Below, piece after piece: positions 15,736-19,649 of a stretch of 64,000 nucleotides of DNA (position 1 is the first letter of the stretch; the number at the start of each line of letters is the position of its first letter). A model generated the notes under the pieces. The model was not told the DNA's origin and did not search any database. It saw only the letters and a list, made by a program, of their open reading frames with translations. The stretch covers positions 1,439,789 to 1,503,788 of the forward strand of contig NC_009440.1 of assembly GCF_000016605.1 (NCBI RefSeq), written 5' to 3'. The translations under genes were made by a program, and so were the position numbers. Source of the stretch: Metallosphaera sedula DSM 5348 (GTDB taxonomy: Archaea > Thermoproteota > Thermoprotei_A > Sulfolobales > Sulfolobaceae).

Positions 15736-16344
15736 TTAGAATAGCTGAGTTCCACAGCTCATACAATATCTAGCCGTGCCAGGATTGGGCGTTCCGCAAG
15801 ATGGACAGTACTTCTGTTGAGGTTGATACGACGGCTGGTTAGGAGGCTGAGCTTGATATGGGTAGGGTTGAGGATACTGTGAAGGCTGATTCTGTTGCGG
15901 ATATTGATATGGGTTTGGCTGAGAATAGGGCTGATACATGGGACTCCCAGATCCCTGGGACATGGAATATGCCAAATTCTCAACCTCCTTTATGATATCC
16001 TTCTCCAGCTTTAGGTCGTACAGCTCCTCTATTCCCTCCACTACTGCGAGCGGAGTGAATACAAGTGCAGCTATAACATCCTCCGTCACATCCGCCGCCT
16101 TTAACCAGTCAGCTAATCCCACGTCCACATTGAGAAAACCTTGACCGCCCATTAGCCTCACAGTGAAGGCCCTATCCGCGCCGAATATCGTTCTCAGAAA
16201 ACCAACTTTCTTGGCCTGAACCACGTAGCTTGCGCCCATCCCTAGAACCTGAGTCTGATAGTGTTTCTTGGACCTAAACCAGTTCTCTAACTGATAGGCA
16301 ATTTGCTGAGGGTTTACATATACTCCCTGGATTGTCTTCTGCAT
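15736..16344 (-). CDS. Zinc-ribbon protein with Gln/Pro/Tyr-rich linker
   Basis: 202 residues in three parts: an N-terminal globular domain (1-130, MQKTIQGVYVNPQQIAYQLE onward) of unknown family; a low-complexity linker (about 131-178) built from repeated Y-P-Q, Q-P and N-Q-P steps; and a C-terminal zinc ribbon with CPSC and CMSC. It is divergent from the FHA protein ArnA, 144 nt away, which also has a CxxC zinc ribbon joined by a Gln/Pro-rich linker, but with the ribbon at the N-terminus. The shared architecture and shared promoter region suggest a functional link. Confidence 0.65.
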   Translation of the reverse strand: MQKTIQGVYVNPQQIAYQLENWFRSKKHYQTQVLGMGASYVVQAKKVGFLRTIFGADRAFTVRLMGGQGFLNVDVGLADWLKAADVTEDVIAALVFTPLAVVEGIEELYDLKLEKDIIKEVENLAYSMSQGSGSPMYQPYSQPNPYQYPQQNQPSQYPQPYPYQAQPPNQPSYQPQQKYCPSCGTPNPGTARYCMSCGTQLF

Positions 16345-16488
16345 TACATATGAGAAATTTAGTCAAACTAAAAACTTTTTGATGATATTTCTTGGTGAAG
16401 ACAAGATATTTCCACGGAGAAGTCAAAAACGTTAGAACTTCTCCATTAGCGAAAATACTTAATAGGTTTCTTGATCTACAATATTACC

Positions 16489-17145
16489 ATGACATGGAAA
16501 TGCACGGGATGCGGAACAGAGAATCCTGACGATGCAATGTATTGCACCACCTGTGGGTTAAAGAGACCTGACGAGCCAGTAGGAGCACAATCTAGTTCAC
16601 AAGAACAGCCAGCTGAACAACAGGTACAAGAGCAACAACAAGCGGTTCCTCCTGCCGAAACACAGGTCCAGACTCAGGAGCCACCAGTCCAACAACCAGT
16701 GCAATCAGCAGAAGCGCAGTTAGTACAGAGTTCAGCACCCGCTAGTCCAACTCCTCAAGAGCAGGCAAGTACAACCCCACAACCTCAAGTTACGCAACCA
16801 CAACCCAGTAGCCAAGAGGGCAAATACTATATTCAGTTCATTGCAACTCCAGTCTCAGCCTTGAACAAGACGAAGGTTCCGCTAGATTTTGACGTATTCG
16901 AAAATATTTCCTTAGGAAGGAGTCCTGAAAACGTATTGATGATCCCAGATAGCGAGATTTCAAGGAGGCATGCGATCCTATCTAAGGAAGGAGACACGCT
17001 TTACATAGAAGACCTAAACAGCACCAACGGTACGTACATCTATGACGGAAAGGTCTTTCAGACGGTAAAGGGGAAGGTCCAGCTTCCTAAAAATGCGGTA
17101 GTGAAGCTTGGCAATAACACCATTATCAAGATTGTGAGAGAATGA
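16489..17145 (+). CDS. arnA: ArnA-like zinc-ribbon/FHA protein
   Basis: 218 residues from the ATG at 16489; an upstream TTG at 16471 only adds six residues. N-terminal zinc ribbon (C5, C8, C19, C22), then an 80-residue Gln/Pro-rich linker, then an FHA domain with GR (143-144), SRRH (158-161) and NSTNGT (177-182), the residues that bind phosphothreonine peptides. This is the architecture of Sulfolobus ArnA, which with the vWA protein ArnB represses archaellum expression under control of Ser/Thr phosphorylation. The next gene, a PPP phosphatase, overlaps by 4 nt and a vWA gene follows by another 4-nt overlap, so all three form one operon. Confidence 0.82.
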   Translation: MTWKCTGCGTENPDDAMYCTTCGLKRPDEPVGAQSSSQEQPAEQQVQEQQQAVPPAETQVQTQEPPVQQPVQSAEAQLVQSSAPASPTPQEQASTTPQPQVTQPQPSSQEGKYYIQFIATPVSALNKTKVPLDFDVFENISLGRSPENVLMIPDSEISRRHAILSKEGDTLYIEDLNSTNGTYIYDGKVFQTVKGKVQLPKNAVVKLGNNTIIKIVRE

Positions 17146-17978
17146 GTTCATGGCCTCAAGAGAGGAGGGACAGTCTCCTCGAGCTGGTCAGAAAATCTAG
17201 AGAGATATTCTCGTCGATGAAACCTCTCTTGAGGGTTGGGGATAGACCTAGGGCAGTTTTTGTTGGAGACACCCACGGAGCTTTCATGGTTACGAAATAT
17301 GTTTTCGAAAATTTCTCGGATTATGACGCCATAGTCTTCCTGGGAGATTACGTAGACCGCGAACCTTATGGGCTCGAGAACTTAGAAATAATTCTCTCTC
17401 ATTTCGTGGAAAATAAGGATAAAGTGATTGTTCTAAGGGGCAATCATGAGAGTCCCCTTACAAACGAATATTATGGATTTAGGGCAGAAGTAAGGGAGAA
17501 ACTAGGAGATGAAAACTACAAAGAATTTGTGGATCTGTTCTCGGAAATGCCCTACGCAGCCATTGTAAATAACTACCTCTGCGTCCATGGAGGTATTGCT
17601 AGAAACTTAAAAAATGTACAACAGATTGAGGAACTTAAGAAACCTGACATAATACCAGAGGACGAGATAGCATTTGAGATGTTATGGAATGATCCTAGAG
17701 AGGAACTGGACGGCTTCGTTCCCAATATAAGGGGTGAGGGAACCTTCTTCTACGGAAAGGACGTAACGCTTGAGTTTCTTAAAGAGAACTCACTCAAGGG
17801 AATAATCAGGGGACATGAGGTAGCTGACGGTTTCAGATCCGAGATAGATGAAAGGGTTATTACAGTGTTTTCCAGTAGATACCACAAGATGAGGGCTGGA
17901 ATCTTACTTCAAGATGGAGAAAAGTTCAACATGGTTTACTTGGACGAGGAATTCCTTCTGAAAGGTGATAAATCATGA
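17142..17978 (+). CDS. PPP-family (PP1/PP2A-type) Ser/Thr protein phosphatase
   Basis: 278 residues with the full set of metal and phosphate motifs: GDTHG (42-46), GDYVDR (68-73), RGNHE (99-103), HGG (149-151) and a later IRGHE. These coordinate the two catalytic metals in PPP phosphatases, which remove phosphate from Ser/Thr. The length is that of the bare catalytic core. It lies between arnA-like and arnB-like genes with ATGA overlaps on both sides, so it most likely dephosphorylates those proteins or their kinases; that partner assignment is inference from context. Confidence 0.9.
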   Translation: MSSWPQERRDSLLELVRKSREIFSSMKPLLRVGDRPRAVFVGDTHGAFMVTKYVFENFSDYDAIVFLGDYVDREPYGLENLEIILSHFVENKDKVIVLRGNHESPLTNEYYGFRAEVREKLGDENYKEFVDLFSEMPYAAIVNNYLCVHGGIARNLKNVQQIEELKKPDIIPEDEIAFEMLWNDPREELDGFVPNIRGEGTFFYGKDVTLEFLKENSLKGIIRGHEVADGFRSEIDERVITVFSSRYHKMRAGILLQDGEKFNMVYLDEEFLLKGDKS

Positions 17979-19126
17979 CACTTTCCATGAAGGTAGAGGT
18001 AAGCCACAAGTACTCTTTCAACAGCGACCTAAAGATGGCTTTTAAAATTCTCCTAGTCCCAGAGAAGATATCTACAGCCACAGGATTTCACTATATTGTT
18101 CTCCTGGACACCAGTGGATCCATGGACGGTCTTAAGATTGAAAGTGCTAAGAAGGGGGCAATAGAGCTACTTAAAAGGATACCACAGGGCAATAAGGTGT
18201 CATTCGTCACCTTTTCCAGTAGGGTTAACATCGTGAGAGAGTTCGTGGATCCGGAGGATCTTACGGCAGAGATTTCGAGCCTATCCGCTGGCGGTCAAAC
18301 AGCCTTCTTTACCGCTCTTCTCACCGCGTTCAATCTTCACAACAAGCACGGAATTCCAAGTTATGTGATCTTATTAACGGACGGAAATCCCACTGATGAT
18401 ACAAACGTTGAGACATACAAGAGGATAGCCATACCCAATGGCGTTCAGACCATATCCTTTGGACTCGGTGATGATTATAACGAAACCATACTCAAGTCTC
18501 TAGCTGACAGATCAGGTGGAGTCTTCTATCACGTAAATGATGCCATGGAAATTCCAGAGAAACTTCCCAAAGCTGCAAAAACCAAGATAGCTGCTAAGAA
18601 CGTTACAGTGGATATAGTCGCTGAGTCCAATGTGAAACTGCTAAACTATTCTGGTCCTCCAGTACAATTGAACGCGGTTGAGGGAGTAGTCAAGATACTT
18701 GGCGAAGCTGTGGTTCCTCCCAACTATAGTGGAAACTTTATGACAGTTAAGGCAAACTATGAGGAGCCAGTAGACGGGAGAAAGCAAGCACTTCTGAGCG
18801 TAGTTAACATAAAACCGGCAGATAGTCAGGCTACCTTCGTGAGTGGAGTGAACAAGGATGTTCTCCTAGAGTACGAGTACTTCAACAACCTTCAGAAGAT
18901 ATCCAGCGAAGTACAGGCTGGTAACCTGGTGGAGGCAACCAGGACACTTAAGAGGATGGAGGAAATAGCTGGCCAAACAAGAAAGATTGAACTCATGGAG
19001 ACCACGCGAAGGTTATCAGATAGCTTAGAGACCACAAAGAGGTCAGGAAATGCCACGGAGCAAACCAGAAAGCTGTCGAAGGAAGTCTCGAGCGAAGTCA
19101 CAAGAAAGCTCAGGGGAGAGAGTTAG
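17975..19126 (+). CDS. arnB: ArnB-like von Willebrand A domain protein
   Basis: 383 residues. The vWA domain shows its metal-ion adhesion motif D45-T-S47-G-S49, the later Thr in SAGGQTAFFTAL, and ILLTDGNPTDD. After a beta-sandwich segment (about 200-290) comes a charged C-terminal tail with five T-R-x-[L/I] elements at T322, T335, T344, T364 and T376. In Sulfolobus, ArnB binds ArnA and is phosphorylated on Ser/Thr, and together they repress archaellum genes. The start overlaps the phosphatase stop by 4 nt. The alternative start Met5 would cost only four residues. Confidence 0.82.
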   Translation: MTLSMKVEVSHKYSFNSDLKMAFKILLVPEKISTATGFHYIVLLDTSGSMDGLKIESAKKGAIELLKRIPQGNKVSFVTFSSRVNIVREFVDPEDLTAEISSLSAGGQTAFFTALLTAFNLHNKHGIPSYVILLTDGNPTDDTNVETYKRIAIPNGVQTISFGLGDDYNETILKSLADRSGGVFYHVNDAMEIPEKLPKAAKTKIAAKNVTVDIVAESNVKLLNYSGPPVQLNAVEGVVKILGEAVVPPNYSGNFMTVKANYEEPVDGRKQALLSVVNIKPADSQATFVSGVNKDVLLEYEYFNNLQKISSEVQAGNLVEATRTLKRMEEIAGQTRKIELMETTRRLSDSLETTKRSGNATEQTRKLSKEVSSEVTRKLRGES

Positions 19127-19649
19127 CGGTTAGAAAGTCTATGTCAATAACTTTAGCCTTGACCTTTTCGAAGGTCCTCATGTTCCTCACTATTGTTGGC
19201 AATTTCCTGGTGTGAATTCCCCACTCTTCCAGGAATTTCTGTAGTTGCGCTATTACCTCTTTCCCTGAGTTACCCAGTGCGGGTATGTCGTGAAAAATCA
19301 AGATTCTTTCAGGATTAGTCTTTCTTCCAAGTACAAGTAGCTCTCCCCTAAACCATTTATCTCCCTTTAGAACCCTAGGTACCAGAGTGAGTGTGAACAT
19401 CCCAGATAAGCTTGCGAGCCCTCCATCACTTGAAGACGAGACCTCAAGTTTATACCCAGACTGAATCCTTCTTCCTGGAAGCATAGGTTCCCTGAGTAGG
19501 ATAAGCTCCCTCAGTACCCGACCATCCACGTCTAGGGCAAATATCTTTGGTCTCTCCTCTCCGTATTCTGGAATGAATTGCTTCATGGTGGCCAAGTATT
19601 TCGTCTGAGGAGATAGTAAAGAATCAACCTTTACTCCGAAAAGTCTCAT
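19110..19649 (-). CDS. Hypothetical protein, 179 aa
   Basis: A beta-rich soluble protein (IPEYGEERPKIFALDVDGRV; YKLEVSSSSDGGLASLSGMF; GELLVLGRKTNPERILIFHD) with a helical C-terminus. No signal peptide, membrane segment or known motif. It converges on the arnB-like gene with a 17-nt overlap. The 298 bases upstream (19650-19947) are AT-rich with no gene. Function unknown. Confidence 0.6.
   Translation of the reverse strand: MRLFGVKVDSLLSPQTKYLATMKQFIPEYGEERPKIFALDVDGRVLRELILLREPMLPGRRIQSGYKLEVSSSSDGGLASLSGMFTLTLVPRVLKGDKWFRGELLVLGRKTNPERILIFHDIPALGNSGKEVIAQLQKFLEEWGIHTRKLPTIVRNMRTFEKVKAKVIDIDFLTANSLP

Follow-up and report, generated by a model that had tools for sequence, protein, structure and literature searches.

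The window analysed here, a whole stretch of 64,000 nucleotides from the 2,191,517-bp genome of a Metallosphaera, contains the M. sedula operon arnA, PPP phosphatase, arnB, whose genes all lie on the plus strand and overlap by 4 nt at each junction. The first gene, arnA (16489..17145, +), encodes a zinc-ribbon and FHA protein of 218 aa counted from its ATG; the FHA domain scores 58 bits in Pfam, the top PDB matches, 5a8i and 8s05_C, are both ArnA, and this is the sole FHA domain detected in its own genome. The start of arnA is most likely the ATG at 16489 (MTWKC, as in relatives), the TTG at 16471 being the start of the mechanical ORF only; an AT-rich, TATA-like stretch lies about 30 nt upstream of this ATG, which suggests a leaderless arnA transcript. 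The second gene (17142..17978, +) encodes a PPP-type Ser/Thr phosphatase of 278 aa (Pfam Metallophos, 103 bits), an orthologue of PP2A and the single homologue of its kind in the genome. The third gene, arnB (17975..19126, +), encodes a beta-sandwich/vWA protein of 383 aa with a C-terminal ArnB_C helical bundle, and its Pfam matches to VWA (72 bits) and ArnB_C (PF18677; 94 bits, residues 294-381) are both over the cut-off.

On sequence grounds, the product of 17975-19126 is ArnB, a vWA protein that partners with ArnA, the FHA protein. This identification follows from the Pfam ArnB_C match, the phmmer match to 8s05_A (453 bits across residues 2-381), the presence of arnA upstream and the placement of the protein in the tree, where the ArnE rows are split off by a 100/100 branch and the window protein nests with Metallosphaera ArnB. 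We take PDB 8s05 to be the Sulfolobus acidocaldarius ArnAB complex of PMC12852372 because its partner chain is ArnA. The domain order is the same as in S. acidocaldarius ArnB (Saci_1211, PDB 8s05, PF18677), with which all six threonine sites described below align. ArnE, or vWA2 (PDB 5a8j), has the same three-domain fold as ArnB and conserves sites 1, 2, 3 and 6, but it is without the helical extension bearing sites 4 and 5 and is usually encoded divergently beside arnA. The hallmark that separates ArnB from ArnE, an extended last helix pair with sites 4 and 5, is present in the window protein and absent in 22 ArnE, and the window gene is linked to an FHA/zinc-ribbon arnA gene, as in ArnB. Whereas most of the family has ArnE encoded beside arnA, none is found there in Metallosphaera. 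The same genome holds two further ArnB_C paralogues unlinked to FHA (G000:C1:1360230-1360463, L032, and G000:C1:292913-293131, L031), and the L032 type, which is without sites 3-5, branches as the sister group of ArnB from Metallosphaera and its near relatives.

A tightly spaced arnA-PPP-arnB arrangement is frequent in the family, occurring in Metallosphaera and several other genera; in Sulfolobus-like and some other genera, only arnA and arnB are adjacent and the PPP gene lies elsewhere. Thus, arnA stands just upstream of arnB in S. acidocaldarius-like genomes, as here, but the PP2A gene, which is located between the two in the window, is unlinked in those genomes, where the one PPP homologue (56% identical) lies away from arnAB (G012 and G020, so labelled because the numbering of their FHA residues agrees with the published one). 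Another genome has two PPP homologues, G014:C1:662141-662968 and 1317612-1318430 (56% and 48% identical), neither of them near arnAB. At the genome level, an FHA domain was detected in 36/36 genomes with ArnB_C and in 45/161 genomes without it, a co-occurrence that is inflated by shared family-level ancestry.

A repeated threonine motif occupies the tail of ArnB. The preliminary description had reported a five-fold array of TRx[LI] motifs, and TRTL322, TRKI335, TRRL344, TRKL364 and TRKL376 are present exactly at T322, T335, T344, T364 and T376; however, five is not the full count, as relatives show six register-conserved sites. Site 1 (T322-R-T-L; 18938..18949, +) lies in the second helix of the bundle, with Thr in 31/31 ArnB, and the Thr of site 2 (T335-R-K-I; 18977..18988, +) is found in 31/31 ArnB and 22/22 ArnE. 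Site 3 is a doublet (T343-T344-R-R-L; 19001..19015, +), as is site 4 (T353-T354-K-R-S; 19031..19045, +), the one that had been missed. Site 5 (T364-R-K-L; 19064..19075, +) has Thr in 31/31 ArnB and is absent in ArnE, and site 6 (T376-R-K-L; 19100..19111, +) has Thr in 31/31 ArnB and 22/22 ArnE. The five threonines first noted correspond to T322, T335, T344, T363 and T375 of S. acidocaldarius, with a one-residue offset after 359; at site 4, TTKRS here stands against TTRRI in S. acidocaldarius ArnB, and the following turn is one residue longer here.

Chance occurrence in a tail rich in Thr, Arg and Leu was ruled out by shuffling and by a genome sample. Shuffles of the 65-residue tail gave a mean of 0.17 motifs, with 0 of 200,000 reaching five, and among 841 ORF products (246,289 aa, taken without overlap from the window and ~0.8 Mb of stretches of the same genome) no protein besides ArnB had more than two TRx[LI] motifs in a 65-aa segment. 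Even the looser pattern T[RK]x[LIVM] occurred at most three times per 65 aa elsewhere, and the closest cases include ArnB's own two paralogues. A DNA repeat array as the source of the motifs was likewise rejected, no direct or tandem repeat being found in the arnB tail. Because the Thr codons and their flanks vary between sites and the DNA repeat is lacking, the repetition is kept at the protein level and does not stem from recent tandem duplication. A gene on the opposite strand was also discarded, as the minus-strand frame examined is full of stops; the mechanical ORF list does contain a 69-aa minus-strand ORF at 18892-19101.

The array is not borne on an otherwise charged helix, as had been supposed, but on the ArnB_C domain (residues 294-381; 18854..19117, +), a helical bundle in the published structure (PMC12852372). 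AlphaFold2 predicts four tail helices (294-314, 318-335, 338-356 and 360-379) from a three-row alignment; in this model of ArnB, with a mean pLDDT of 40 and tail block means mostly ~62-82, only the tail helices are usable. When a helical wheel was drawn with the Thr and +3 residues omitted, residues 325, 347 and 379 (the +3 positions of sites 1, 3 and 6) fell on the hydrophobic face, within ~40 degrees, and residues 338, 357 and 367 fell off it. Hydrophobic residues also recur at -4/-3 and +7 of the array threonines.

The alignment comprised 31 FHA-linked ArnB, 22 divergent ArnE, ~15 unlinked paralogues and five proteins of another family of the order, and in it the motif was aligned in all close relatives. 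The six array Thr columns of the 31 ArnB contain 185 Thr, 0 Ser and 1 other residue, compared with 393 Thr, 39 Ser and 64 other residues in the remaining Thr-majority columns of the same proteins; these are related sequences, and the comparison is not an independent-sample test. The absence of Ser is what would be expected if a phosphothreonine-specific FHA reader were selecting at these columns. Within the doublets, T343 and T353 are less conserved (28/31 and 26/31) than T344 and T354 (31/31 and 30/31). Nearly every FHA-linked ArnB has sites 4 and 5, which are absent from 22/22 ArnE and most unlinked paralogues. In the 22 ArnE, Thr is retained at sites 1, 2, 3 and 6 with hardly an exception. 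Since the ArnE of S. acidocaldarius is reported as a non-binder of ArnA (PMC12852372), ArnA binding does not suffice to explain conservation at these sites.

Conservation of the +3 residue is less uniform. It is hydrophobic at sites 1, 3, 5 and 6 throughout ArnB and at site 2 with one exception, but not at every site: at site 4, L, I or V is found in 24/31 ArnB (24/25 outside Metallosphaera), while all six Metallosphaera have S or A and read TKRS or TKRA where nearly all other relatives have T[RK]R[LIV]. The strictly kept unit is thus T-[RK]-[RK], which Metallosphaera site 4 retains as TKR. In ArnE, site 2 likewise keeps Thr and two basic residues, and its +3 residue is E, P, S or K in most sequences, mainly E or P.

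These observations bear on the proposal that a hydrophobic residue at pT+3 constitutes a code read by the FHA domain, which we regard as unproven. In Metallosphaera, the +3 residue of the FHA-relevant pair T353/T354 is R for the first threonine and S or A for the second; in ArnE, Thr is retained next to a +3 position occupied by E or P; and three sites have their +3 residue on the hydrophobic face of the helix. The +3 hydrophobicity seen at most sites is therefore confounded, as it partly reflects helix packing. We consider it about an even chance that the +3 hydrophobic residues serve helix packing and that T-[RK]-[RK] is what the kinase recognizes, with the FHA domain reading phosphate, possibly double, with little +3 selectivity. 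In addition to the helical-wheel estimate for 325, 347 and 379, the hydrophobic residues at -4/-3 and +7 and the changes of the +3 residue under constant Thr and basic residues (Metallosphaera site 4, most ArnE site 2) are in line with this reading. T-x-R at the array may be a kinase preference, since Arg at +2 of phosphothreonine is enriched 4.6-fold in the S. islandicus phosphoproteome (PMC7744417). However, the +3 residue of site 4 (357), near the hairpin tip, is off the hydrophobic face, yet it is L, I or V in 24/25 non-Metallosphaera ArnB and in 5/5 proteins of the distant family, which packing would not obviously demand.

The properties of the reader are also informative. Like ArnA of S. 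acidocaldarius (Saci_1210, PDB 5a8i), Rad53 FHA1 and GarA, the window ArnA keeps the FHA phosphate-binding residues, and counterparts of R132, S146, R147 and T167 are present in it and in nearly all relatives. Compared with other pThr-reading FHA proteins, ArnA has Arg in the recognition loop where Asn is usual, and this second Arg is typical of double-phosphate readers (PMC6509490). This extra Arg is kept in the window ArnA; its conservation favours adjacent or paired phosphothreonines as ligands and agrees with phosphate reading of low +3 selectivity. A measured pT+3 preference of the ArnA FHA domain was not found in the literature searched.

Much of the remaining evidence comes from S. acidocaldarius. 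All phosphosites mapped in 2019 fall inside the C-terminal bundle of ArnB, and cutting ArnB after residue 316 strongly reduced ArnA binding in vivo (PMC6509490). In vitro, ArnC needed no more than 5 min to phosphorylate T353, T363 and T375 and acted on T322 and T335 later (PMC12852372); T363 phosphorylation was also found in vivo (PMC6509490), and a T343/T344 phosphopeptide was detected both in vivo and in vitro (PMC6509490, PMC5300886). Equivalents of all five threonines first noted in the window are thus reported as phosphorylated, in vitro or in vivo, and mass-spectrometric assignment within the TT doublets may be ambiguous. Phosphorylation loosens the ArnB bundle, in which T371 and T375 are buried against the vWA domain, and FHA R132 and R147 are HDX-protected on binding; ArnA also binds unphosphorylated ArnB weakly via its zinc finger, so ArnA binding is not wholly phospho-dependent, and the authors' model is a loose-to-tight ArnA-ArnB switch with redundant sites (PMC12852372). 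PP2A binds ArnA and ArnB and dissociates their complex (PMC7472852). The published Thr-to-Ala pairs left motility unchanged, and in vivo no phosphosite was found whose decrease matched the loss of ArnA-ArnB binding, peptide III rising during starvation (PMC6509490). We found no experiment on the ArnA-ArnB pair of Metallosphaera in the literature searched.

The sites might divide the work between them. It is possible, though we would give it only about one chance in three, that only the T343/T344 and T353/T354 doublets together with single T364 dock the FHA domain and that sites 1, 2 and 6 mainly destabilize the bundle, so that the tail would be a two-part device rather than a uniform ladder. 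The distribution of sites 4 and 5 among FHA-linked ArnB, ArnE and unlinked paralogues fits such a division, as do the possession of sites 1 and 2 by the reported non-binder ArnE and the burial of T371 and T375, whose phosphorylation loosens the bundle (PMC12852372). The T353A/T354A and T359A/T363A pairs lose early ArnA binding, after short phosphorylation, and regain it after long phosphorylation (PMC12852372). However, even an octuple Thr-to-Ala mutant of alpha8-alpha9 binds ArnA after prolonged phosphorylation (PMC12852372), which means that other ArnB sites can dock; this speaks against a strict division, and it is compatible with an FHA domain that reads phosphate with little regard to +3. 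Moreover, in S. islandicus, ArnE (SisArnE) does bind ArnA.

The preliminary description had favored a docking ladder with a repeated pT+3 code and a graded or switch-like response. A uniform ladder of this kind, hexavalent in general and pentavalent here, with a pT+3 [L/I] code and a graded or ultrasensitive output, appears improbable to us. The repeats are regular and conserved, near-identical T[RK]R[LIM] units recur in a distant family, and the redundancy of sites and the higher-order ArnA/B oligomers formed upon phosphorylation (PMC7472852, PMC12852372) would suit such a ladder; nevertheless, phosphorylation is ordered and the sites are not equivalent (PMC12852372), conservation of the +3 residue breaks down at a key site in Metallosphaera itself, and each ArnA has a single FHA domain, so that avidity would need several ArnA per ArnB.

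Thus, we suggest, with a probability of roughly 0.88, that the locus encodes a multisite phosphothreonine ArnB_C tail, one FHA reader (ArnA) and a co-encoded phosphatase as eraser, acting in the archaellum and stress regulatory network of Sulfolobaceae. Hanks-type kinases, several of which are encoded in the genome, would phosphorylate the array threonines one after another, aided by the basic residues at +1 and +2 of the T-[RK]-[RK]-(hydrophobic) motif, which recurs at six register-conserved sites and is degenerate at +3 in one of them here. Phosphorylation would loosen the four-helix bundle, and the exposed phosphothreonines, probably beginning with sites 4 and 5, would be bound by the cell's one FHA domain, so that the ArnA-ArnB complex, at first held loosely through the zinc finger, would become tight until the co-encoded phosphatase reverses the modification. 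The +3 hydrophobic residue would serve helix packing at several sites and contact the FHA domain at some sites at most. Phosphorylation, FHA-dependent tightening, loosening seen by HDX and reversal by phosphatase are demonstrated in S. acidocaldarius (PMC6509490, PMC7472852, PMC12852372), and by analogy we infer that Metallosphaera ArnB behaves likewise; what the present comparison establishes is orthology, the six-site register, the conservation of Thr and not Ser, the FHA phosphate-binding residues and the gene linkage.

The earlier interpretation is, on the whole, partly supported. Its main point, multisite docking of the ArnA FHA domain on a phosphothreonine tail and its resetting by the phosphatase, holds, but was already known for the S. 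acidocaldarius orthologue from work published in 2019, 2020 and 2026 (PMC6509490, PMC7472852, PMC12852372); the phosphatase gene does lie between arnA and arnB, and its PP2A orthologue acts on ArnA/ArnB (PMC7472852). None of the outcomes that the preliminary description had named as refuting it occurred, since the motif aligns in close relatives, the equivalent threonines are phosphorylated in S. acidocaldarius and ArnA binding there depends strongly on the tail. The additions that comparison makes to the published picture of ArnB are modest, namely the six-site register, the loss of the site 4 hydrophobic residue in all six Metallosphaera and the Thr-not-Ser pattern. ArnA-ArnB is the best-studied archaeal FHA/phosphothreonine switch and is tied to motility and the DNA-damage response, and the comparison narrows the promiscuous phosphosites listed from in vitro work down to six register-conserved threonines, a small set with a ranking. 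Metallosphaera, being without the tip-site +3 hydrophobic residue, offers a natural experiment that sets an FHA pT+3 code against helix packing.

In a second family of the order (L096-L100, five genomes), T[RK]R[LIM] repeats of nearly identical form occur, and FHA and PPP genes lie within a few kilobases of them, for which reason the T[RK]R[LIM]/FHA/PPP module may predate Sulfolobaceae. In the five distant proteins, site 5 was misplaced by automatic alignment, and the sites were therefore counted on ungapped sequences. T343 and T353 are replaced there by A, V, Q, K, E or S, and T354, unlike T353, is kept across the two families. It would be tempting to see in this an ancestral, order-wide module of a six-site T-[RK]-R-[L/I] array, an FHA reader and a PPP eraser, in which the second Thr of each doublet (T344, T354), and not the T353 stressed in the literature, were the original FHA-reading position and which Metallosphaera re-tuned by dropping the tip-site +3 residue; as a whole, we consider this extended scenario rather unlikely. 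In four of the five genomes of the second family, arnB and the FHA gene are divergently oriented.

Several minor features were noted in and beyond the operon. A divergent gene at 15736-16344 (-) adjoins it, the product of which combines a zinc ribbon at the C terminus with a linker rich in Pro, Gln and Tyr, and a convergent ORF of 179 aa without a Pfam match (19110-19649, -) has a 17-nt overlap with the end of arnB. Elsewhere in the genome, G000:C1:951840-952361 (L105) matches Hanks-type kinases in part, is interrupted by an internal TAA and is possibly a decayed kinase gene.
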